From Methanocaldococcus fervens AG86 (GTDB lineage Archaea; AGJL01; Methanococci; Methanococcales; Methanocaldococcaceae): a stretch of DNA of 64,000 bases. A program made the position numbers and the translations under genes. The DNA is taken from assembly GCF_000023985.1 (NCBI RefSeq), contig NC_013156.1, positions 608,363 through 672,362 on the forward strand. Reading direction: 5' to 3'. Below the pieces are notes generated by a model. It was given only the letters and a program-made list of their open reading frames with translations, did not search any database and was not told the DNA's origin. Below, in pieces: positions 1 to 11,918 of the stretch (position 1 is the stretch's first letter; every line of letters starts with the position of its first letter).

Positions 1-77
1 ACTTTATCAACTTTTAATCCATACTCATTATTTCCCAATCTAAACACAACAATCTTCATAATTTCAGAATCAGCCAT
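1..77 (-). CDS. cheW: CheW-like coupling protein, N-terminal fragment
   Basis: Only the first 25 codons lie in the window; the gene runs off the left edge. The start codon follows a good ribosome binding site (GAGGTGG, about 5 nt away). The peptide begins MADSEIMKIVVFRLGNNEYG and matches the opening beta strands of CheW domains, in which a hydrophobic strand and the 'LGNNEYGL' turn are typical. CheW links chemoreceptors to CheA in the cytoplasm. The receiver and histidine kinase genes a few kb away fit a signalling locus. Only the N-terminus is visible, so a CheA or CheV with a leading CheW domain is possible. Confidence 0.6.
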   Translation of the reverse strand, partial: MADSEIMKIVVFRLGNNEYGLKVDK

Positions 78-239
78 ATTTCCACCTCACACAATAATAA
101 TATCATAATTAAGAATTAAAAAATTTTTTGGTCTAAACTTTCTCTTTGAGTTATTGAATTATTTCAAAATTTTCCCTTTAGAATTTATTGTTATTTCGGT
201 TTATTTAAAAATTAAAAATTTTAATTGAGAAAAAGAGAT

Positions 240-653
240 TTATTCATCTTTGGCTATCAACTTACCTGCGTCTGGTCCAGATTTCAAGTTATATATTTCA
301 GTTATTTTTATAACTACTGCTCCTTTTGGTTTAAAATCTGGTCTTAATGCTTTATCGAGCTCTTCAGCAATTTTTAGATACTCCCCCTCTTTATAATATT
401 CAGCAACTCCTTTATATTGGTAAGGCATCTCCCTACAGTTTGCTGTTGTTAAAGCAACGTTAGGATTTTCCAAAATATTTTTTAAGGTTTTGTTCATGAA
501 GTTGTCTGCTATCAAAACCATTCCTTTTTCAGCATCTAAAACTTTAACAGCCTTCATAGGAGCTACGTTAGGAATTCCTTCTTTTGAAGATGTAGCTAAA
601 AACACAATTTCATTTTCTAATGATTTAACCATATCCTCACTTAACTTTACCAT
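240..653 (-). CDS. Pyridoxamine 5'-phosphate oxidase-like FMN-binding protein
   Basis: A 137-residue protein with the split-barrel flavin fold of the PNPOx-like family. Near the N-terminus a strand of the type 'IVFLATSSKEGIPNVAPMK' is the usual first FMN-binding segment. It is followed by 'MVLIADNFMNKTLKNILENP', where a conserved Asn/Lys pair contacts the flavin. These short archaeal members are probably flavin reductases or binding proteins; the substrate is unknown. The ATG follows GGTGACAAC. It appears to be a single-gene unit transcribed leftward, with an AT-rich promoter (TTTAAATATTTTT) at about 693-705. Confidence 0.8.
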   Translation of the reverse strand: MVKLSEDMVKSLENEIVFLATSSKEGIPNVAPMKAVKVLDAEKGMVLIADNFMNKTLKNILENPNVALTTANCREMPYQYKGVAEYYKEGEYLKIAEELDKALRPDFKPKGAVVIKITEIYNLKSGPDAGKLIAKDE

Positions 654-729
654 GTTGTCACCAAAATATGTCGCTATTAAAAATAATATGAACTAAAAAT
701 ATTTAAAGTTATACATTTTGGTGATATTC

Positions 730-909
730 GTGAAAATCTATATTCAACCAGTTGGAGATGTTAATATTGAAGTTTTAGATTTTTAAAGAAAAATTAACTT
801 TTGGAAAGGACTATAAAAATGCGTTGTGGGTTTTTCAAATCTAATCATTAATGTAGATTTTAAAGATTGTAAATATTGCGAAAGATATCTAAAAAAGTTA
901 AAAATATGA
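730..909 (+). pseudogene. Decayed archaemetzincin (N- and C-terminal remnants)
   Basis: A GTG with a GGTGAT ribosome binding site opens a reading frame (MKIYIQPVGDVNIEVLDF) that looks like the N-terminus of archaemetzincin zinc proteases, then meets a stop. After frame changes, the last stretch reads SNLIINVDFKDCKYCERYLK and ends at the TGA. This resembles the family's C-terminal CxxC zinc motif. The middle, including the HExxH active site, is missing: about 180 nt remain of an expected 540. I read it as an internally deleted, frameshifted pseudogene. The assignment is by memory of the family and is moderately secure. Confidence 0.5.
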
Positions 910-919
910 TATAACTTTA

Positions 920-1294
920 TTATTTTCCTTCCTCTAATTTTAATATTGCCTCAGCAATGTCTCCGTTGCATTCTTCTAATGCTTTTCTTGCCTCTTCTTT
1001 TGAGACGTTGCATTCTTTAGCTACCAATTCAACATCCTCATCTGTAATTTCAACCTTAACTTCTTCCTCTTCTATCTCTTCTTTTTTAATCTTCATAGGT
1101 TTTCCTGTTATTGAATATGTTTTAACTCCCAATATGTCCATAACCTGAACTTTTGGCTCTTCAAACACCCATTCCTCATCATCAAATACAAATATCACTT
1201 TTTTTGGGCTTAAATCTTCGGTCTCCATTCCAAAATCTTTCATCATCTTTTGCATTTTCTTCAACATTCTTGGATTTACTTTTCCTGGAAACAT
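920..1294 (-). CDS. nac: Nascent polypeptide-associated complex protein (aNAC)
   Basis: Archaeal NAC, a ribosome-associated homodimeric chaperone. The first ~25 residues (MFPGKVNPRMLKKMQKMMKD) are basic and mediate ribosome contact. Residues ~30-75 form the NAC beta barrel, and the last ~40 residues are a UBA domain (ITDEDVELVAKECNVSKEEA). The ATG at 1294 is preferred because GGTGAAAAA lies directly before it; an upstream ATG at 1309 would add five residues. The 124-residue length is normal. It lies downstream of and parallel to the UbiA-family gene (gap 46 nt), so the two may be cotranscribed. Confidence 0.92.
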   Translation of the reverse strand: MFPGKVNPRMLKKMQKMMKDFGMETEDLSPKKVIFVFDDEEWVFEEPKVQVMDILGVKTYSITGKPMKIKKEEIEEEEVKVEITDEDVELVAKECNVSKEEARKALEECNGDIAEAILKLEEGK

Positions 1295-1340
1295 TTTTTC
1301 ACCAAACATTTTTACCTTTAAGTAGTATAAAGGTTTAGAT

Positions 1341-2171
1341 TTATATTCTTATAGCTCCAACAATAAATGCTAAAAGGACAATGTTCATTATAATTTTTAA
1401 AAATTTTGAAACCTTTGAGGAAGTTTCTTTATCTGGATTTTTTAATAGTAAAACCATAACATAGATAAACAAAATATCACATATTGCTACCAAAATCATG
1501 TAATAAACTCCAAATATTCCAAATAGGCATGGCAGAGGGCTTAATATAACTGCAAAAATAACCAAAAACGTAGCAAAATATAAGGCTTTTTTACCATATT
1601 TTATTGGTAATGATACAACCCCCTCTTTTTTATCCCCTTCCATATCTTCAAAATCCTTAACAATCTCCCTTCCCCAAATTGAAAGCAGGGAGCATAAAAA
1701 CAAAACAACAACTGGCATAACATTCTCTCCAGCAACTCCGCCAAATAAAAATACGGAACCTGTTAAATACCCAATAATAAAGTTTCCTATTGGCTTATAT
1801 CGTTTGTATCTTTTTGCATAAAGGTATAAAAAGAATGCATTAACAACAGCTATAATTAAGGCGTATATGTTTATAAATACTGAGAGAGCTAACCCAAAAA
1901 TTAGTAAAATAGCTGAAAATGTTTTCGCCTCATTCAATTTAATTTTTCCAGAAGGTAGAGGGCGATAGGGCTTATTTATCCTATCTATCTCAATATCAAA
2001 GATGTCATTTATTACATTTCCATAAGCACTAACAAAGAAGACAACAAAAAACACCAAAATACATTTTAAAATATCAATTTCAAAGTTTGATGAAATCAAA
2101 TAACCAATAATCCCTCCAACAGATGCAGTTATGCAATTTTTAACCCTAATAAGCTCTAAGTAACTTCCCAT
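1341..2171 (-). CDS. UbiA-family prenyltransferase, likely digeranylgeranylglyceryl phosphate synthase
   Basis: An integral membrane prenyltransferase with about eight to nine transmembrane segments. The first Asp-rich motif is seen in 'NDIFDIEIDRINKPYRPLPSG' (NDxxDxxxD) and the second in 'KDFEDMEGDKKEGV'. These bind the Mg-diphosphate of the polyprenyl donor. In archaea this family makes digeranylgeranylglyceryl phosphate, the second ether bond of membrane lipids. It sits beside NAC as I recall in M. jannaschii. The ATG at 2171 aligns with the family; a GTG three codons upstream has better spacing from GGTGAT and may be the true start. Confidence 0.82.
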   Translation of the reverse strand: MGSYLELIRVKNCITASVGGIIGYLISSNFEIDILKCILVFFVVFFVSAYGNVINDIFDIEIDRINKPYRPLPSGKIKLNEAKTFSAILLIFGLALSVFINIYALIIAVVNAFFLYLYAKRYKRYKPIGNFIIGYLTGSVFLFGGVAGENVMPVVVLFLCSLLSIWGREIVKDFEDMEGDKKEGVVSLPIKYGKKALYFATFLVIFAVILSPLPCLFGIFGVYYMILVAICDILFIYVMVLLLKNPDKETSSKVSKFLKIIMNIVLLAFIVGAIRI

Positions 2172-2221
2172 CTTTCCCACGAAAATCACCAAAAGTTATT
2201 AAATAAATAATAAATTATGCC

Positions 2222-3637
2222 TTACCAAAACTTTAAAATAAATTTCTCCAATAGCAATTTTCCTAAATCTGTTAATTCTACTTTAGCACCTTCTTTTTTC
2301 ACAAACCCATGTTTTAATAGTGGTTCTACCCTATCATACGCTGTTCTTCTATGTATTCCTAAATTTTCTGCGAGTTCCTCTATCTTTACGGAACCGCCCA
2401 TTTCGTAAATCTTCTTTATAGTTTCCTTTGTAGCAGGATATTTGGTAATCATAGAAATACCTTCTTTTATGCAAATATTTGCCAGGTCTGGAAGTATTGA
2501 ACATAAGGCAATAGTATAATTGTTGTATTCGCTAAATACAATTTCTCCATAAGATGAAAAACCAAATAACGGATATAAATCTTTCAGAACTTCTAACCAT
2601 TCATTTGTTTTGTCTTTTCCGATTTCAGCCAAATAAACTGGAAGTGCCAAAAAACTAAATGCGTGAGGATATTGAGGGGGGGTATTTAAAATACTTTTAT
2701 TTACCTCCTCAAAGATGTGTTTTATTTTATCTTTATCTATTTCATAGTCAATTAGCTCCACACCCTCACGTATATTGGAACCAAAAACCAATGCATTATT
2801 TTTTATTGATATCGGACCTTTTATGTGTATTTTTTCATTGTTTAAATCCAACGTTCCAAATTGATGTGTAAAATAAAATTCCCTGTCTTTTGAAATTTCT
2901 CCAAGTTTTTTATAATTAAAGACAGACATGTAATAATCTAAGGCATTGATGTTGTTTATTTTGCTCACATATCTTTTATTTGCTTCAGTAACCCTTCCTT
3001 TTGTCTTTTTACTAATTAATTCTCTTTCAGTAAATCTCCCCACGGTTATTTTTGGAACAATATCTCCTCCAAATACAACACATACAACACTGTCAACATA
3101 GACATCGTTGCAGTATTGATATGTTCTGCTAAACTCAAAGTTATCACTCGTAACCCCACCAAATATTGGGACACACATGCCAAGTTTTTTGATAATTCCA
3201 TTTAAAACTTCTTCTTCAAAGTTGCAACAATCCATAAACACCATAACCAGCTTTGGAGCCATACCTAAATCTTTTATGGCTGTTTCTATTGCCTTCTTTC
3301 CACATTCTTCTGGATTTATAGATACCCCTAAACCTACTCCAATTCCAATATCGATGTATTTTGATGATATGATGCCAACAGAAACTCCTTTATGTGGTTC
3401 ATTGTTAATTATTGAATATCTCGCACTACCTCCTACAATGGGTATATCATTACCCAATATTAATTTAACACCATTCAACACTTCTTCAGGTTCATAATCT
3501 GGAGATGAAAATAGGAACGCTAAATTTATATATTTATCATTTTCAATGTTTTTTAATGCTTCAGTTACTGCATACGCCCCAGATTTTAGCGGATTTTCAT
3601 CATTTGAATGCCCCCAACCAAATTCTATAAATTTCAT
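2222..3637 (-). CDS. FIST sensory domain protein with C-terminal winged-helix DNA-binding domain
   Basis: A 471-residue protein. The N-terminal ~200 residues show the FIST_N pattern (GWGHSNDENP, then 'GGSARYSIINNEPHKGVSVG' and 'GGVTSDNFEF'). Residues ~220-395 match FIST_C. The last ~65 residues are a winged helix-turn-helix ('VKIEELAENLGIHRRTAYDRVEPLLKHGFV'). FIST is thought to sense small ligands such as amino acids; here it is fused to a DNA-binding domain, so it is probably a one-component transcription regulator. The ATG follows GTGATTAAC. It is divergent from the receiver/kinase operon and shares about 115 bp of promoter region with it. Confidence 0.78.
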   Translation of the reverse strand: MKFIEFGWGHSNDENPLKSGAYAVTEALKNIENDKYINLAFLFSSPDYEPEEVLNGVKLILGNDIPIVGGSARYSIINNEPHKGVSVGIISSKYIDIGIGVGLGVSINPEECGKKAIETAIKDLGMAPKLVMVFMDCCNFEEEVLNGIIKKLGMCVPIFGGVTSDNFEFSRTYQYCNDVYVDSVVCVVFGGDIVPKITVGRFTERELISKKTKGRVTEANKRYVSKINNINALDYYMSVFNYKKLGEISKDREFYFTHQFGTLDLNNEKIHIKGPISIKNNALVFGSNIREGVELIDYEIDKDKIKHIFEEVNKSILNTPPQYPHAFSFLALPVYLAEIGKDKTNEWLEVLKDLYPLFGFSSYGEIVFSEYNNYTIALCSILPDLANICIKEGISMITKYPATKETIKKIYEMGGSVKIEELAENLGIHRRTAYDRVEPLLKHGFVKKEGAKVELTDLGKLLLEKFILKFW

Positions 3638-3751
3638 GTTAATCACTTTAATGAAAATATTAAAAATAAAAATATTTATTAACATAAAAAAGTTGTATAA
3701 GTTAGTGGTTATTTAAACTTTAATTATTATTAAGTGTTACGGTGAGGCAGT

Positions 3752-4114
3752 ATGACGAAAATTTTGGTTGTTGAGGATGAGGAAGATATATTAAATCTAA
3801 TTAAAATAATTTTAGATATGGAAGGATATTTAACAATATTGGCTAAAGATGGAGAGGAAGGAATTAAAGCTTTAGAGGATAATGAAGACATATCTTTGAT
3901 AATACTGGATATAAGAATGCCGAATATGAACGGATGGGAGTTTTTAAAAATAATAAAAAGTAGTGATAAATGGAAGAACATCCCTGTGATTGTATTGACT
4001 GCATACACTCAAGTGAGTGATATAGAAAAAGCAAGAAGTATGGGAGTTGAAGGATACATCGCTAAACCATTTTCAAGAGAAGAGCTAATCAGAAAAATTA
4101 AGGATATTATTTAA
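3752..4114 (+). CDS. CheY-like response regulator, stand-alone receiver domain
   Basis: A 120-residue receiver with no output domain. The acidic pair is E8/D9 (VVEDEED), the phosphoacceptor is D53 (LIILDIRMP), the switch Thr is T83 (VLTAYT) and the invariant Lys is K105 (IAKPFS). All catalytic positions are present, so it should be phosphorylated by a partner kinase, most likely the one encoded immediately downstream with 9 nt between stop and start. The start follows GGTGAGGC. Output could be through protein contact, for example with the divergent FIST-HTH protein or a chemotaxis apparatus; this is inference. Confidence 0.93.
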   Translation: MTKILVVEDEEDILNLIKIILDMEGYLTILAKDGEEGIKALEDNEDISLIILDIRMPNMNGWEFLKIIKSSDKWKNIPVIVLTAYTQVSDIEKARSMGVEGYIAKPFSREELIRKIKDII

Positions 4115-4123
4115 GTGATAAGT

Positions 4124-6022
4124 ATGATGAAAAAAGCACTTAGGATAAAATTGCTGATATTGTCGATAATAATTTCAATAATTCCTGTAACAATTCTGGG
4201 TGCAGTGTCTGTAGAAAACACCATAAAAACAATGAGTGAAGAAGCTCAGAAAAAGATCAATACCGACCTTCAAATTGCCGAATATATCCTAAATGAAAGG
4301 TTAAATTTTTTGTCCAAGTCCTTAGATTTAATGTCAGATAACAAAAATACACTATCATCAATTAAAAACAAAAATCTAAATGAATTAAAAACCATTACAT
4401 TGAATTTAAAAAACACTACGGACTCTGACTTTGTGATAATATTTGACAAAGAAGGTAAAGTTTTAGTGAGTTCAAATAACGATAAAAATAACTACGTTGA
4501 TCTTCCATTAATAACCAAAAAAGTCCTCTCTGGCAGAGAAATAAATAGTATTGAAATAATAGATGAAACTACATTAAAAAATGAGAATTTGCTGAATAAA
4601 ACGTCCATCAAAATAATTTCTACTGAACATTCAATAAATGTTAATAAAACTATTGAAACATCAGCTTTAGGTTTGGTGTCTGCAAGGCCAATATACGACG
4701 AAAATGGAAATATCATAGGCGGAATATTAGTTTGTGATATATTAAATAAAGATTACGAACTTGTTGATGAAATTAGTAAACACTGTGGAGATGTTGTTAC
4801 CATCTTTTTGGACGGTATTAGAATTTCTACAGATGTAAAAAATGATGATGGAACAAGGGCCGTAGGAACTCTTGTATCTAAAGAGGTGTATGATAAGGTA
4901 ATTAAAGAGGGCGAAATGTATCAAGGTAGGGCGTTTGTTGTAGATAAATGGTATATAACTGCATATAAACCAATATACAATTCAGATAATGAAGTTATTG
5001 GGATGTTATTCGTTGGAACTCCAGAAAAGCCATTTATTGAATTACAACAAAACATTAAAACACATACCATTCTCATTGGATTTTTAAGCATAATCTTAGC
5101 GTTGAGTGTATCTTTAGTATTAAGTGAGGCAATAATAGGCCCAATAAAAAAACTAAAATATGCTGCGGAAAAAATTAGCTCTGGAAACTACAATATTCAC
5201 GTGGATGTAAGTAGTGATGATGAAATTGGAGAGCTTGCTAAAGCATTCAATAAAATGGCTGAAGATATAAGAAAATCCCATGAAGAACTTAAAAGACATA
5301 CAAAAGAACTAAAAGAATCCTATGAAAAATTAAAAGAGATAGATAAGCTAAAATCTGAAATTATTTCAATAGTGTCTCACGAGTTAAGAACTCCATTAAC
5401 TTCAATAAAAGGTTACGTAGAATTAGTTTTAGATGGTTTAATGGGAGAGTTAAATAGCAATCAAAGAAGATGTCTTGAAATAGCCAATAATAACATTGAC
5501 AGGCTAAAGAGGTTAATAGATGATATGCTTGACCTCTCTAAAATAGAAAGCGGAACAATAAAATTTGATATAAAGGATGTAAAAATTAAGGATATGGTAG
5601 TGGATGTCTTAAACTCCTTAGGACCACAGATAAAAGAAAAAAATATAGAAATAAAATGTGAAATTGAGGAAAATCTGACTGCAAAAGTTGATAAAGATAG
5701 AATTACTCAAGTTTTAATAAACTTAATTGAAAACGCCATAAAATTCTCACCTGTGAAAGGAGTTATTGAAATACATGCATTTAGGGATAATAACTATGCT
5801 CACATAATTATAAAAGATTATGGACCAGGAATACCTAAAAAAGATTTAGATAAGATATTTGACAAATTCTATCAAGTAAACTTTCCAAAAATCAAAAAGG
5901 ATGGAGCTGGTCTTGGGTTGGCAATATGTAAAAGCATTATTGAAGCACATGGAGGTAAAATTTGGGTTGAAAGTGAGTTAGGTAAAGGTACTTCTTTCCA
6001 CGTGCTTTTACCAATTGAATAA
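4124..6022 (+). CDS. Membrane sensor histidine kinase (Cache-HAMP-HisKA-HATPase)
   Basis: A 632-residue kinase. A first transmembrane helix (~8-28) is followed by ~280 extracytoplasmic residues resembling a Cache-type sensor, including 'YDENGNIIGGILVCDI'. A second helix (~313-334), HAMP (~335-388), a linker coil and HisKA follow, with the phospho-His at about 419 (SHELRTPLTS). The ATPase shows N box NLIENAIKFS (~533), G1 DYGPGIP (~565) and G2 GAGLGLAI (~594). All motifs are intact. It forms an operon with the receiver. M. jannaschii, as I recall, has no histidine kinases, so the locus was probably gained in this lineage or lost there. Confidence 0.95.
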   Translation: MMKKALRIKLLILSIIISIIPVTILGAVSVENTIKTMSEEAQKKINTDLQIAEYILNERLNFLSKSLDLMSDNKNTLSSIKNKNLNELKTITLNLKNTTDSDFVIIFDKEGKVLVSSNNDKNNYVDLPLITKKVLSGREINSIEIIDETTLKNENLLNKTSIKIISTEHSINVNKTIETSALGLVSARPIYDENGNIIGGILVCDILNKDYELVDEISKHCGDVVTIFLDGIRISTDVKNDDGTRAVGTLVSKEVYDKVIKEGEMYQGRAFVVDKWYITAYKPIYNSDNEVIGMLFVGTPEKPFIELQQNIKTHTILIGFLSIILALSVSLVLSEAIIGPIKKLKYAAEKISSGNYNIHVDVSSDDEIGELAKAFNKMAEDIRKSHEELKRHTKELKESYEKLKEIDKLKSEIISIVSHELRTPLTSIKGYVELVLDGLMGELNSNQRRCLEIANNNIDRLKRLIDDMLDLSKIESGTIKFDIKDVKIKDMVVDVLNSLGPQIKEKNIEIKCEIEENLTAKVDKDRITQVLINLIENAIKFSPVKGVIEIHAFRDNNYAHIIIKDYGPGIPKKDLDKIFDKFYQVNFPKIKKDGAGLGLAICKSIIEAHGGKIWVESELGKGTSFHVLLPIE

Positions 6023-6127: not shown

Positions 6128-6146
6128 TTGTGGTCTTGTGGGGTCT
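6128..6146 (+). repeat. 19-bp element, copy 1 (operator candidate)
   Basis: The 19-mer begins TTGTGGTCTTGTGG and ends GGTCT. It has two TTGTGG hexamers starting 8 bp apart. An exact reverse-complement copy lies at 6646-6664 before fdhC. It is unusually G-rich for its surroundings. It probably marks a shared regulatory protein site for the small gene at 6169 and the formate transporter, but no binding protein is known to me. Confidence 0.6.
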
Positions 6147-6168
6147 CAAACTCACAGAGGGTGTTAAC

Positions 6169-6426
6169 ATGAGCGAAGAGATTATTATCACAACAATATA
6201 TGAAATACCTGGAATAGAAATATGTATAAAAGAAATTATTTCTGAAGCCGTTGAAGGTACAGATGTAGAACAACTCATAAAAAAGTTGGAAGAAAGAGTT
6301 AAAGAAAAAGATTTGGACGGAATCGTAGGACTTAAAATTGTTTCAGCCATTGAAGATGGAAAAGTAAAACTCATAGGTTTTGGAAGTGGATTCAAAATTA
6401 TTAAAAGCCAGTGGGCAGTTTATTAA
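6169..6426 (+). CDS. Small conserved-looking protein of unknown function
   Basis: An 85-residue soluble protein. The ATG follows AGAGGGTGTT. The sequence has an N-terminal strand 'IIITTIYEIPGIEI', an acidic/basic helix, and then 'GIVGLKIVSAIEDGKVKLIG'. The layout (ITT...IPG...helix...GIVGLKI) is loosely like the YbjQ/DUF74 small barrel family, but I am not certain. It lies between the kinase gene and fdhC and shares an exact 19-bp upstream element with fdhC, which hints at co-regulation with formate metabolism. Confidence 0.6.
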   Translation: MSEEIIITTIYEIPGIEICIKEIISEAVEGTDVEQLIKKLEERVKEKDLDGIVGLKIVSAIEDGKVKLIGFGSGFKIIKSQWAVY

Positions 6427-6604: not shown

Positions 6605-6645
6605 TATTTATAATGACAAAATGACAAATTATACAATGTGGGATA

Positions 6646-6664
6646 AGACCCCACAAGACCACAA
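6646..6664 (-). repeat. 19-bp element, copy 2 (operator candidate, before fdhC)
   Basis: Exact reverse complement of 6128-6146. It lies 39 bp before the fdhC ATG, downstream of one TATA-like sequence (TTATTTATAAT near 6605-6615) and just upstream of another (CATATATAAAC near 6672-6682). Which is used decides whether the element lies in the leader or upstream of the promoter. A local hairpin TGTGGG...CCCACA (6637-6655) overlaps it. Confidence 0.6.
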
Positions 6665-6702: not shown

Positions 6703-7515
6703 ATGTTTAATCCACCAGCAAAAGCTGTTGAAATGGCAGCAAATTCAGGAGAATATAAAGCGAACCTTCCTTGGAATCAATTGCTTGTTAGAGGTATTAT
6801 GGGAGGGGCATATATTGCAATGGGTGCTGGTCTTTGTACTGTTTGTAGTACTGGAGTTGCTTCATTAGCTCCAGGTCTTGCAAAACTCGTTGGAGGGGCA
6901 GTGTTCCCAGTTGGTCTGATTTTAATTATTATGACAGGGATGGAACTTGTTACTGGAGACATGATGCTTCTTCCATTAGCAATATTGAAAAGAAAAGCAT
7001 CATTCTCCCAACTGTTAAAAGTTTGGTTTTGGGTATATATTGGAAACCTAATAGGTTCTTTAATATATGCACTAATTATGGCTTATGGTCCATTAAAAAG
7101 TTTCAAAAATGGAGAGTGGATAGTAAATTCCTTTGGACAGACTGCAATTGGAATTGCTGAAGCGAAAGTCCTTCCATACATATCAGGAGGAGCATTAGGA
7201 TGGCTTTCATGCTTGGTTAAAGGTATTGGTTGTAACTGGCTTGTTAATCTTGCAGTCATGGGTTCATTTGCAGCATCAACTGTTATTGGGAAATTCTTCA
7301 TGATTTGGTTCCCAATTATGACATTCGTCGCTTCAGGATTTGAGCACTGTGTAGCAAACATGTACTTCATCCCAGCAGGAATGTTGTTAGGGGCTAATGT
7401 CACAATAGTGGACTGGTGGCTATGGAATGAAATCCCTGCTACAATAGGAAACATTATTGGGGCAGTGATATTCGTAGCAATGGTGTATTGGTATGCGTAT
7501 GGTAGAGAGATCTAA
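6703..7515 (+). CDS. fdhC: Formate transporter FdhC (FNT family)
   Basis: A 270-residue inner-membrane channel of the formate/nitrite transporter family with six predicted transmembrane helices. Family features include the amphipathic N-terminus 'FNPPAKAVEMAANSGEYKA', the long helix 'GGAYIAMGAGLCTVC', 'MELVTGDMMLLPLA' and 'ASGFEHCVANMYFIPAG' near the pore. The ATG at 6703 follows GGAGGG. It is first in a run with an OB-fold protein, carbonic anhydrase and formate dehydrogenase, the classical methanogen formate-uptake order (fdhC-cab-fdhAB, here with one insertion). The 19-bp element upstream suggests regulation. Confidence 0.95.
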   Translation: MFNPPAKAVEMAANSGEYKANLPWNQLLVRGIMGGAYIAMGAGLCTVCSTGVASLAPGLAKLVGGAVFPVGLILIIMTGMELVTGDMMLLPLAILKRKASFSQLLKVWFWVYIGNLIGSLIYALIMAYGPLKSFKNGEWIVNSFGQTAIGIAEAKVLPYISGGALGWLSCLVKGIGCNWLVNLAVMGSFAASTVIGKFFMIWFPIMTFVASGFEHCVANMYFIPAGMLLGANVTIVDWWLWNEIPATIGNIIGAVIFVAMVYWYAYGREI

Positions 7516-7516
7516 A

Positions 7517-8035
7517 ATGAAAAAAATAATTAGATTTGCAAAAACTATGCCTTCGGCAACCTTATCTTTAGTCTTTTGGGGCGGAATAACAATATTTGCG
7601 ACTATAATTTCAAAGAACATATGGATATTAATACTCTCAATACCGTTTCTTTTGGGACTAACTTACGTTCCATATAAAGTTTCAAATATGAACAAAAATA
7701 TTTCGGAGGAGTTAATCCCCATCTATCAGAAAAATGCTCCTTTGTTAAAGATCAGTGAGATAACCAAAGATAAACTAAATGAAAGAGTAAAAGTAATTGG
7801 AACAATTGAAAAAATCATCTACGGGATTTCTCCAAAACCAACAATACGAATTAAAGATGACACTGGCAGTATATACGTAAGTTTAATTGTTCCTCTTCCA
7901 GAAGATGTCAACGTAGGAGACAAAGTTGAAATATATGGAGTTGTGACTAAACATTATAAATTCTTTGGTTTTATGGGAATTCCAAAACTTTGGAAACCAA
8001 AAATTTATGGAATAGGGGCCAAAAAACTGAATTAA
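7517..8035 (+). CDS. Membrane-anchored OB-fold protein in the formate operon
   Basis: A 172-residue protein. The first ~60 residues contain two closely spaced hydrophobic helices ('PSATLSLVFWGGITIFATII' and 'IWILILSIPFLLGLTYV'). Residues ~85-170 look like an OB fold of the tRNA-anti/NfeD-like kind ('ERVKVIGTIEKII...IRIKDDTGSIYVSL...VGDKVEIYGVV'). The ATG begins two bases after the fdhC stop and the gene ends 9 nt before the carbonic anhydrase start, so it is surely cotranscribed. I do not know its role; anchoring or assembly of the formate uptake system is a guess. Confidence 0.75.
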   Translation: MKKIIRFAKTMPSATLSLVFWGGITIFATIISKNIWILILSIPFLLGLTYVPYKVSNMNKNISEELIPIYQKNAPLLKISEITKDKLNERVKVIGTIEKIIYGISPKPTIRIKDDTGSIYVSLIVPLPEDVNVGDKVEIYGVVTKHYKFFGFMGIPKLWKPKIYGIGAKKLN

Positions 8036-8044
8036 AGGGAAAAT

Positions 8045-8494
8045 ATGGGACACGCCACGCCAAGAAAAAAACTTGCAATTGTAACATGTATGGATGCTCG
8101 TCTTGTTAATTTCCTCTCCGAAAAATTGGGAATAAAAAAAGGAGATGCTAAAGTTATCAAAAATGCTGGAAATGTGATAACTGAAGATGTAATAAGATCC
8201 CTTGTTGTTGCAATTTATTGCTTAGACGTTGAGAGAGTTATGGTTGTAGGACATACAGACTGTGGAATGAAATCTGTTGATGCTGAAGAAATTAAGAAAA
8301 AAATGCTTGAAAGAGGAGCCAACCCTTACTTTACTCCTAATCTAAAATGTTGGCTAAATAAAATCGATGATGAAGAAAAAAATGTGATTGAGGGTGTAAA
8401 TATAATAAAAAATCACCCTGCAATTCCAAAAGATGTAACTGTTGAAGGATACATAATAGATGTTGAAACTGGAGAGTTGAAAAAACTCTGCTAA
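8045..8494 (+). CDS. cab: Beta-class carbonic anhydrase
   Basis: A 149-residue cytoplasmic zinc enzyme interconverting CO2 and bicarbonate. Zinc ligands and the Asp-Arg dyad are visible: 'CMDARL' (Cys ligand, Asp, Arg) and 'VVGHTDCGM' (His and Cys ligands). The short length matches the methanobacterial Cab type. Its place between fdhC and fdhA suggests it hydrates the CO2 produced by formate oxidation or balances bicarbonate. Start ATG after AAAGGGAAAAT. Confidence 0.92.
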   Translation: MGHATPRKKLAIVTCMDARLVNFLSEKLGIKKGDAKVIKNAGNVITEDVIRSLVVAIYCLDVERVMVVGHTDCGMKSVDAEEIKKKMLERGANPYFTPNLKCWLNKIDDEEKNVIEGVNIIKNHPAIPKDVTVEGYIIDVETGELKKLC

Positions 8495-8693: not shown

Positions 8694-10730
8694 ATGAGTG
8701 AATTTAATGTAGTTCATACAATCTGCCCATACTGTGGGACAGGTTGTGGTATCAACTTAATTGTTAAAGATGATAAAGTTGTAGGGACTTATCCATACAA
8801 AAGACATCCAGTAAATGAAGGAAAAGTTTGTATTAAAGGAAATTACTGTCATGAGTTTATACATAGAGAAGATAGGTTGAAAAAGCCATTAATTAAAAAG
8901 AATGGCGAGTTTGTTGAAGCTACATGGGATGAGGCATTAAACCTAATCGCAGAAAAATTAAAAAATTACAGCCCTGAAGAAGTTGGTTTCTTCTCATCTG
9001 CAAGATGTACAAATGAAGACAACTACATTTTCCAAAAATTTGCGAGAGCTGTTGTAAAAACTAACAACATAGACCATTGTGCAAGACTTTGACACTCTGC
9101 AACTGTTAAAGGTTTAGGGGAAGCCTTTGGATCTGGTGCCATGACAAACTCAATTGAAGACATTGAAGAAGCTGACTGCATATTGATAATTGGTTCTAAT
9201 ACATTTGAACAACACCCGTTAATTGCAAGGAGAGTTGTTAAAGCTAAAGAAAAAGGAGCTAAAATTATTGTTATAGATCCAAGAAAAACAATAACTGCTA
9301 AACAGGCCGATTTATTCCTTCAAATAGTTCCAGGGACAAATGTAGCTTTACTAAATGCAATGATGCACGTAATTATAAAAGAAGGGTTAATAGATGAGGA
9401 ATTTATAAAAAAGAGAACAAAAGGGTTTGAAGAATTGAAAAAGGTTGTAGAAAAATACACTCCTGAATATGCCTCAAAGATTTGTAAAGTTGATAAGGAC
9501 TTGATTATAGAAGCGGCAAGGACATACGGAAGTGCTGATAAAGCAACTATCCTATACTGTATGGGGGTTACACAGTTCACCCATGGTGTAGATAGCGTTA
9601 AATCCTGCTGTAATTTGGCATTGATAACTGGAAATATAGGAAAGAGAGGGGCTGGAGTTAACCCATTGAGAGGACAGAACAACGTTCAGGGAGCTTGCGA
9701 TATGGGGGCATTACCAGATGTGTTCCCAGGTTATCAGAAGGTGAATGTGGCTTATGAAAAATTTAAAGATGCATGGGGTGTTGAGTTAAATCATGAAATT
9801 GGTTTATCAATTCCAGAAATGATTGAAAAGGCAGGAGAAGAGATAAAATTCCTCTACATAATGGGAGAAAACCCAATGGTATCAGATCCAGATACTAAGC
9901 ACGTTGAAAAGGCTTTAAAAAGCTTAGATTTTTTAGTTGTTCAGGATATCTTTTTAACTGAAACTGCGAAATTGGCGGATGTTGTTCTTCCAGCGGCATG
10001 TTGGGCAGAAAAGGAAGGGACGTTTACAAACACTGAAAGGAGGGTTCAAAAAATAAACAAAGCTGTAGACCCTCCAGGAGAAGCTTTACCAGATTGGATA
10101 ATAATTAAAAAGCTTGCGGAAAAAATGGGCTATGCTGATAAGTTTAATTACAACTCACCAAGGGAGATATTTGAAGAAATAAGAAAGGTAACTCCACAAT
10201 ATGCAGGAATTAGCTATGAGAGATTAGGTGTTGATGGAATACATTGGCCATGTCCAAGTGAAGACCATCCAGGAACTCCAATCTTACATACTGAGAAGTT
10301 CTTAACTCACGATGGTTTAGGAAGAATATTTGCAATTGAATATGAAGAGCCAGTAGAATTGCCAGATAATGAATATCCATTCATCCTGACTACTGGAAGA
10401 ATAATATTCCACTACCATACTGGAACAATGACAAGAAGAAGTAAGCACATAATAAATGAAATAAATGAAGGATTTGTTGAGATAAATCCAGAGGATGCCA
10501 AAAAATTAGGAATTAAAAATAATGATTTAGTTAAAGTAAGTTCAAGAAGAGGAGAAGTTGTTGTAAAATCGAGAATTACTGAAGATATCAAAGAAGGAGT
10601 TGTCTTTATGCCATTCCACTTTGCAGAAACTGCTGCAAACATATTAACAAATACTGCCCTTGATCCAAACTGTAAAATCCCAGAACTAAAAGTTTGTGCT
10701 GTAAAAATTGAAAAACTAAAAACTGAATAA
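8694..10730 (+). CDS. fdhA: Formate dehydrogenase alpha subunit, selenocysteine-containing
   Basis: A 678-residue molybdopterin (Mo or W) oxidoreductase that oxidises formate to CO2. The N-terminal [4Fe-4S] motif is CPYCGTGCG...GKVCIKG. The in-frame UGA at 9090-9092 falls exactly at the catalytic position, residue 133 (HCARL-Sec-HSATV), and the frame continues without other stops to 10730. Naive annotation would split it into 8694-9092 and a piece starting at 9141. Downstream domains match the family ('RRPMQ'-like absent; '[10 protein letters not shown]', '[11 protein letters not shown]', C-terminal dinucleotide-binding '[18 protein letters not shown]'). FdhB follows 48 nt later. Confidence 0.97.
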
Positions 10731-10778: not shown

Positions 10779-11918
10779 ATGAAATATGCTCTGATTCAAG
10801 CAGCTGATGGAGAGATTTTAAAGAGGGCAGAGTGTGGAGGAGCAGTTACAGCCTTATTTAAATACTTGTTGGACAATAAGCTTGTCGATGGGGTTTTAGC
10901 TTTAAAGAAAGGAGAGGACGTTTATGATGGAATTCCAGCATTTGTAACAAATTCTGATGAGTTGTTAGAGACTGCTGGTTCTTTACACTGCGCTCCAACA
11001 AACTTTGGAAAAATAATCAGTAAATATTTAAACGACAAAAGAATTGCAGTTTCTACAAAACCATGTGATGCAATGGCCATAAAGGAATTGGCAAAGTTAG
11101 AGCAGGTAAATTTAGATAACATCTACATGATTGGTTTGAATTGTGGAGGGACTGTCAGCCCTATCACAGCCATGAAGATGATTGAGTTGTTTTATGAGGT
11201 AGACCCAAAGGATGTTGTTAAAGAGGAGATTGATAAAGGTAAGTTTATAATATTCTTAAAGGATGGTACCGAAAAAGCTGTAAAAATAGATGATTTGGAA
11301 GAGAAGGGCTTTGGTAGAAGAGAGAATTGCCAAAGATGCGAAGTTATGATTCCAAGAATGGCTGATATAGCCTGTGGAAACTGGGGAGCTGAAAAAGGTT
11401 GGACTTTTGTTGAAATTTGTTCAGAGAAAGGAAGAAAGTTGATTGAAGAAGCTGAGAAAAATGGATACCTAAAAATCAAAGAACCCTCAGAAAAGGCAAT
11501 TCAAATCAGGGAAAAAATAGAGAATGTTATGATAAAATTGGCTAAAAAATTCCAAAAGAAGCATTTAGAGGAAGAATATCCAAGCTTAGAAAAATGGCAG
11601 AAATATTGGAACCGATGTATAAAATGCTATGGTTGTAGGGATAACTGCCCTCTATGCTTCTGTGTTGAATGTAAGTTGGAGAAAGATTATATTGGTGAAA
11701 AAGGAAAAATTCCTCCAGACCCAATAATGTTCCAAGGGATTAGGTTAAGTCATACTTCCCAAAGCTGTATAAATTGTGGACAGTGTGAAGATGCATGTCC
11801 AATGGAGATTCCTTTAGCTTACATCTACCACAGAATGCAGTTAAAGTTTAGAGACTCCTTCGGATACGTTCCAGGAGTTGATGATAAGATACCACCATTG
11901 TACAGCTTGAATAAATAA
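10779..11918 (+). CDS. fdhB: Formate dehydrogenase beta subunit, F420-reducing
   Basis: A 379-residue FrhB/FdhB-family iron-sulfur flavoprotein that takes electrons from FdhA and reduces coenzyme F420. The N-terminal '[15 protein letters not shown]' is the family hallmark. The middle carries '[11 protein letters not shown]' and '[20 protein letters not shown]'. The C-terminal third has two cysteine-rich clusters ('[14 protein letters not shown]' and '[16 protein letters not shown]') for [4Fe-4S] centres. The ATG follows AAGGTGATATC. It is in one operon with fdhA and convergent with the YedE genes. Confidence 0.96.

Follow-up and report, generated by a model that had tools for sequence, protein, structure and literature searches.

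A histidine kinase, a stand-alone receiver and a FIST-winged-helix protein linked to the formate operon of Methanocaldococcus fervens

We analyzed a 64,000-nucleotide stretch of the genome of Methanocaldococcus fervens AG86 (G000, contig C1, positions 608363-672362; hereafter the window), a genome consisting of two contigs of 1,485,061 and 22,190 bases. Near its left end lies a triad of genes encoding a stand-alone receiver, a sensor histidine kinase and a divergently transcribed FIST protein with a helix-turn-helix domain (FIST-HTH), directly followed by genes for formate uptake and oxidation. Synteny and co-occurrence tie the triad to this formate operon, and we consider it likely that the triad is a two-component system which, together with FIST-HTH, controls the operon.

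The triad and the adjoining formate operon

The FIST-HTH gene (2222..3637, minus strand) encodes FIST_N and FIST_C domains and a C-terminal winged helix-turn-helix, recognized by Pfam and alignment and proposed as the DNA-binding output of the system; FIST_N scored above the Pfam cut-off, and the FIST_C and winged-helix matches just below it. According to the alignment, translation probably begins at a conserved ATG at 3637 and not at 3685. A divergent intergenic region (3638..3751) leads to the receiver gene (3752..4114, plus strand), which encodes a response regulator without an output domain (PF00072, 100 bits) whose active-site aspartate, threonine and lysine are kept in 14 of 14 relatives. 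The kinase gene follows (4115..6022, plus strand), starting with GTG at 4115 or ATG at 4124, and its product of 635 aa combines a dCache region, the second module of which is an sCache_3_3 domain (PF17202, E 1.5e-39), with HAMP, HisKA and HATPase_c domains, all likewise above the Pfam cut-offs. Two hydrophobic peaks lie near residues 5-37 and 314-345, and the phospho-acceptor H422 is invariant, together with its surrounding motif, in 13 orthologues. Kinase and receiver have the domains that define a two-component system of histidine kinase and response regulator, and phosphoryl transfer between them is predicted.

The original prediction, made from positions 1 to 6022, had described this locus as a phosphorelay. 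The components that it named, a Cache-HAMP kinase, a stand-alone receiver, a divergent FIST-HTH and the start of a cheW gene, are all present; however, because neither an HPt domain nor a second receiver occurs within the locus (the only HPt domain seen is that of CheA), we describe it as a one-step two-component system. The genes of that stretch are as named, but it ended at 6022, just before the formate genes, and thus missed the conserved partner of the triad.

That partner, all on the plus strand, comprises a methanococcal selenium-binding protein gene (6169..6426; PF11524, with TIGR03884 above cut-off), the formate transporter gene fdhC (6703..7515; PF01226), a gene for a conserved formate-cluster protein that appears OB-fold-like on reading of its sequence and is kept in the clusters of 11 genomes (7493..8035), a carbonic anhydrase gene (8045..8494; PF00484), fdhA, for the formate dehydrogenase alpha subunit (8694..10730), and fdhB, for the FrhB-like beta subunit (10779..11918). 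An in-frame TGA interrupts fdhA at 9093-9095 (CARL-TGA-HSATV), and the part after it scored above cut-off against TIGR01591; this TGA is a likely selenocysteine codon, and a selenium-binding protein gene is found in the same operon.

The distribution of the triad was determined in 36 Methanococcales genomes, 14 of them from the genus Methanocaldococcus; the co-occurrence values given here are counts of genomes and not of independent events, and several of these genomes are closely related. Full-length orthologues of FIST-HTH and of the kinase occurred in an identical set of 14 of the 36 genomes. The receiver adjoins the kinase in all 14, and the triad is intact in 13, with a contig end falling between receiver and FIST-HTH in the remaining one (G034). 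In 11 of the 14, fdhAB adjoins the triad and fdhC lies in the same cluster, eight genomes having the window order (G014-G017, G033, G034, G000 and G006) and three a convergent order (G018-G020). Within Methanocaldococcus, HisKA was found in two of the 14 genomes (G000 and G006), which bears out the earlier suggestion of a lineage-restricted kinase, and FdhC only in the same two. These share the order FIST-HTH | receiver-kinase-selenium-binding-FdhC-OB-FdhA-FdhB at different chromosomal places, the carbonic anhydrase of G000 being additional relative to G006. The earlier statement that M. jannaschii lacks histidine kinases and chemotaxis genes also held, as profile searches of its genome gave no HisKA, receiver, CheW or methyl-accepting chemotaxis protein (MCP) match. 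Taken together, synteny and co-occurrence show that the triad is tied to the formate operon. The triad is also kept in G022, G023 and G029, without adjoining fdh genes and with no copy of the DNA element described below nearby; its persistence there argues that FIST-HTH goes with the receiver-kinase pair rather than with the operon alone.

Two sequence comparisons bear on a possible horizontal transfer of this block: in the kinase tree, the Methanocaldococcus pair is not nested inside the other family with support, but FdhA of G000 is 86% identical to that of G034, from the other family, versus 88% to that of G006. A side observation concerns the kinase orthologue of G019 (L225), which has one in-frame TAG in its sensor half, reflecting a pseudogene, a sequencing error or a recent break.

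A conserved DNA element and its candidate regulator

Two copies of a conserved element lie in the operon, one inverted before the selenium-binding gene (6128..6156, minus strand), the other 5' of fdhC and 3' of a TATA-like stretch (6637..6664, plus strand). The element is a block of 28-29 bp, TGTG-N7/8-ACCCCACAAGACCACAA, that contains the 16-mer CCCCACAAGACCACAA. An exact copy of this 16-mer stands 5' of fdhC in 10 genomes of two families, and a copy with one change in an eleventh (G019), so that every one of the 11 genomes examined has the element at fdhC. The second, inverted copy is exact in G000, G006 and G034 and degenerate in G033, where a further degenerate copy precedes the receiver. 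A dyad in some of the FIST-receiver gaps led us, when scanned, to the element at fdhC; a 9-mer motif common to all of these gaps was also sought, and none was convincing beyond shuffles. A matrix trained on the other family only ranked the two window copies first, with scores of 35.9 and 27.7, while 60 random sequences matched for dinucleotide composition reached 16.7 at best. When 532 kb of retrieved Methanococcales sequence were scanned, only the copies of the element scored. Judged by eye, the element stands just 3' of TATA-like stretches and in most genomes covers the expected start site, the usual position of an archaeal repressor site.

Additional repeats were observed at some loci. In G018, G019 and G020 (L244:6268-6305, L247:7241-7278 and L245:9176-9213), the fdhC element is accompanied by an additional repeat, ACCACAAGACCAC, so that half-sites recur at 8-bp intervals, an arrangement that hints at cooperative binding. 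In G029 (L205, about 11050-11230), tandem repeats with the inverted repeat TGTTATCAC...GTGATAACA lie directly 5' of the receiver, and the fdh-type element is absent there.

FIST-HTH is the sole recognized DNA-binding protein in the conserved block, and its winged helix is its best conserved part (73% mean identity); our best guess is that the receiver acts on it. FIST genes are often found beside kinases. An alternative would be that FIST-HTH regulates independently of the kinase-receiver pair and only happens to be its neighbour, with the element read by another protein or acting as an RNA leader. FIST domains can sense ligands themselves, triads away from fdh have no element nearby, and the element, overlying the expected start site, could fold into a short RNA hairpin, all of which suits this alternative. 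Nevertheless, the co-occurrence of FIST-HTH and kinase is perfect even where fdh has moved away, and no second DNA-binding protein is recognized in the block. Furthermore, because inverted copies exist and several genomes have mismatches in the stem but an unchanged 16-mer, a DNA site fits better than an RNA hairpin. We therefore regard separate regulators as unlikely and retain FIST-HTH as the candidate reader of the element. A broken FIST gene, with three TAG and two TAA codons in its first part, was also noted elsewhere in the genome (G000:C1:1048891-1049477, in L075), near the cheY-cheF-chemoreceptor cluster described in the next section.

The sensor module and the chemotaxis neighbourhood

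The second Cache module of the kinase spans residues 210-312, and of all solved chains only the chemoreceptor ligand domains 8py1 and 8py0 matched it significantly. In the formate chemoreceptor PacF, formate is reported to be bound by an Arg/Thr/Thr triplet, R142, T145 and T158 (PMC12501870). Residues R236, T239 and T252 of the kinase reproduce the spacing of this triplet (+3/+16), in a comparison made by published positions rather than with PacF's own sequence, 8py1 not being confirmed as PacF. All three residues are present in 13 of 13 complete orthologues, and the loop between them is one residue shorter in most. On these grounds, formate is the leading guess for the kinase ligand, and not a result. 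Further full-length kinases of the same architecture, 35-41% identical, were found elsewhere in G016, G014, G015 and G017 (L229, L230, L231, L228 and L236), and in four of these five one or more of the three formate-type residues have been lost.

More distant relatives of the kinase were also found. A related-loci scan across named genomes returned bacteria only and no named Methanococcales. Two full-length relatives from spirochaetes (L096 and L098; about 30% identity) stood in clusters that contain FdhA-like genes as well as genes of NiFe-hydrogenase or proton-antiporter type and have receivers close by, contexts that are an independent tie to formate or H2. Within M. fervens itself, the Cache-HAMP half of a 752-aa chemoreceptor (L074:7773-10028; G000:C1:21772-24027) is 41% identical to the kinase and has the same Arg/Thr/Thr. 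Since it combines a sensor of the kinase type with these residues, it may be a formate chemoreceptor, and the same type of sensor may be used for taxis as well as for gene control.

The window begins within a chemotaxis gene: positions 1-77 (minus strand) are the start of cheW (G000:C1:607999-608415, 126 bits). Extension to the left, as the original prediction had recommended, revealed a cheW-cheB-cheA-cheD cluster within 6 kb. The kinase-receiver pair could on this account be wired into chemotaxis, feeding phosphate to CheA/CheY or draining it from them, an idea to which the kinase-like sensor of the 752-aa chemoreceptor adds some appeal. However, G006 possesses kinase, receiver and FIST-HTH and lacks CheW, CheB, CheY and MCP, and although CheW occurs in seven of the 14 Methanocaldococcus genomes, a HisKA kinase is missing from the other six that carry che genes. 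The remaining chemotaxis genes, encoding CheR, two CheC/CheX-type proteins, CheY and CheF, lie beside a chemoreceptor gene near C1:1,042-1,046 kb, about 440 kb off. Since receiver and CheY share only 33% identity, a role of the receiver as a second CheY was rejected. A chemotaxis link of the triad, which the original prediction had entertained, was rejected on distribution together with synteny; wiring of the kinase-receiver pair into chemotaxis is close to refuted by distribution, and we hold it to be highly improbable.

Between cheW and FIST-HTH lie PNPOx (240-653), NAC (920-1309) and UbiA (1341-2192), all on the minus strand. The UbiA-NAC-PNPOx group is kept in G001, G003 and G006, where UbiA is bordered by an FKBP-like gene and PNPOx by one of P-loop ATPase type (names assigned by sequence reading), and both outer joins of the group are altered in G000; in G006 the triad lies 35 kb from UbiA. 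The archaemetzincin gene between NAC and PNPOx is intact in G003 and G006 (178-179 aa) and decayed in the window (730-909), so the remnant and the rearrangement proposed earlier are both real. Because the joins are rearranged here and triad and che genes occur independently, che is a neighbour of the triad by REARRANGEMENT, and the adjacency carries no functional weight. About 10 kb left of the window, two adjoining frames apparently represent one broken transposase, with a zinc-ribbon N-terminal part followed by a catalytic part (L003:8849-9754; G000:C1:597211-598116).

Proposed mechanism and comparison with known systems

We propose that formate, or a similar small molecule such as bicarbonate, is the ligand of the kinase's extracellular Cache module, and that its binding would alter autophosphorylation of H422 and phosphoryl transfer to the receiver, as the domain set of the two proteins predicts. 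The receiver, since it has no output domain, would act by contact with FIST-HTH, which in turn would bind the 28-29 bp element over the expected starts of the selenium-binding gene and fdhC and most likely repress there until formate use pays. The formate ligand, the contact between receiver and FIST-HTH, the binding of FIST-HTH at the element and the repression are the steps that we infer. The FIST part may in addition respond to H2 or redox state inside the cell. Our fuller proposal, a formate-sensing two-component system whose output-less receiver works through a FIST-winged-helix repressor at the 28-29 bp operator, so that outside sensing by the kinase and inside sensing by FIST converge on one DNA-binding protein, is a tentative one to which we assign somewhat less than an even chance. 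To our knowledge, such a division of labour between kinase and FIST protein has not been described in archaea.

Published work on M. maripaludis bears on this proposal. There, a receiver-kinase pair lies 5' of fdhC-fdhA1B1 (Sattler et al. 2013, via PMC10025317), and a 10.2-kb region with a part in formate use is co-transcribed (PMC11097638). The direction of control that we suggest rests, by analogy, on a receiver disruption that gave more fdhA1 mRNA and slower growth on formate (PMC10025317). Several points weigh against the proposed control of the operon by formate. First, because the same mutant combines more fdhA1 mRNA with poorer growth on formate, the logic of control is not simple. Second, fdh expression in M. 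maripaludis was reported to follow H2 and not formate (PMC10025317). Third, the triad is kept in three genomes where neither fdh genes nor the element adjoin it. Fourth, Arg/Thr/Thr is present in 10 of 15 other Methanococcales relatives and six of six bacterial ones, and is weakly diagnostic because it is common in this Cache family.

The second and fourth points favour the alternative that the triad does control the formate operon, with a kinase that senses an H2-linked redox state, bicarbonate or another small anion instead of formate; a carbonic anhydrase in the operon and the formate-like shape of bicarbonate agree with it. The PacF residues are, however, kept in all complete orthologues and eroded in most of the unlinked Methanococcus kinase paralogues, spirochaete relatives also stand in FdhA-like clusters, and an extracellular Cache domain would be odd for H2 sensing. 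We consider this alternative rather unlikely. Under the mechanism that we prefer, formate sensed outside and an H2-linked signal acting on FIST inside would reconcile the H2 response of M. maripaludis fdh.

The choice of methanogens between H2 and formate is poorly understood, as are the outputs of many archaeal receivers. The module described here offers a sensor for which a ligand is predicted, a DNA-binding partner that in our sample was always accompanied by the kinase, and a defined DNA site; all of these are also present in Methanococcus, a genus open to genetic work. A further prediction is that M. fervens can grow on formate; a survey credits this organism with fdhC and lists its formate growth as untested (PMC10025317). 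The receiver-kinase pair at fdh in Methanococcus is already known, and the FIST-HTH partner, the formate-type pocket, the element and the occurrence in Methanocaldococcus are apparently new within the open-access literature searched, which yielded nothing useful on the M. maripaludis locus tags or on FIST proteins with archaeal kinases.

Several known systems come close to this module. Archaeal kinase-regulator pairs such as MsmS and RdmS with their Msr regulators, and FilI/FilR, likewise combine a membrane or soluble kinase with neighbouring HTH regulators or receivers that are associated with genes of methanogenesis, and we know of neither a FIST-HTH partner nor a formate operon in them. NosP-type proteins have FIST_N and FIST_C domains in common with FIST-HTH, which differs in its additional winged helix and scores 30.9 bits on the NCBIfam NosP model, against a cut-off of 450. 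The formate chemoreceptors PacF, McpF and Atu0526 possess, like the kinase, a Cache_3-type sensor with Arg-x2-Thr-x12-Thr at the same spacing (PMC12501870); they are chemoreceptors, whereas the sensor of M. fervens drives a histidine kinase and its formate binding is predicted only. A further close counterpart is the fdh system of M. maripaludis, which has the same order as the window, receiver-kinase-...-fdhC-...-fdhAB; in four genomes of genus g2 with this type of block, the kinase is about 50-52% and the receiver about 52-55% identical to those of the window. Its description, as summarized in PMC10025317, names the receiver and kinase only, and not FIST-HTH, the sensor residues or the element. 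In contrast to M. maripaludis, the module of the window belongs to a hyperthermophilic genus, most of whose genomes lack it.

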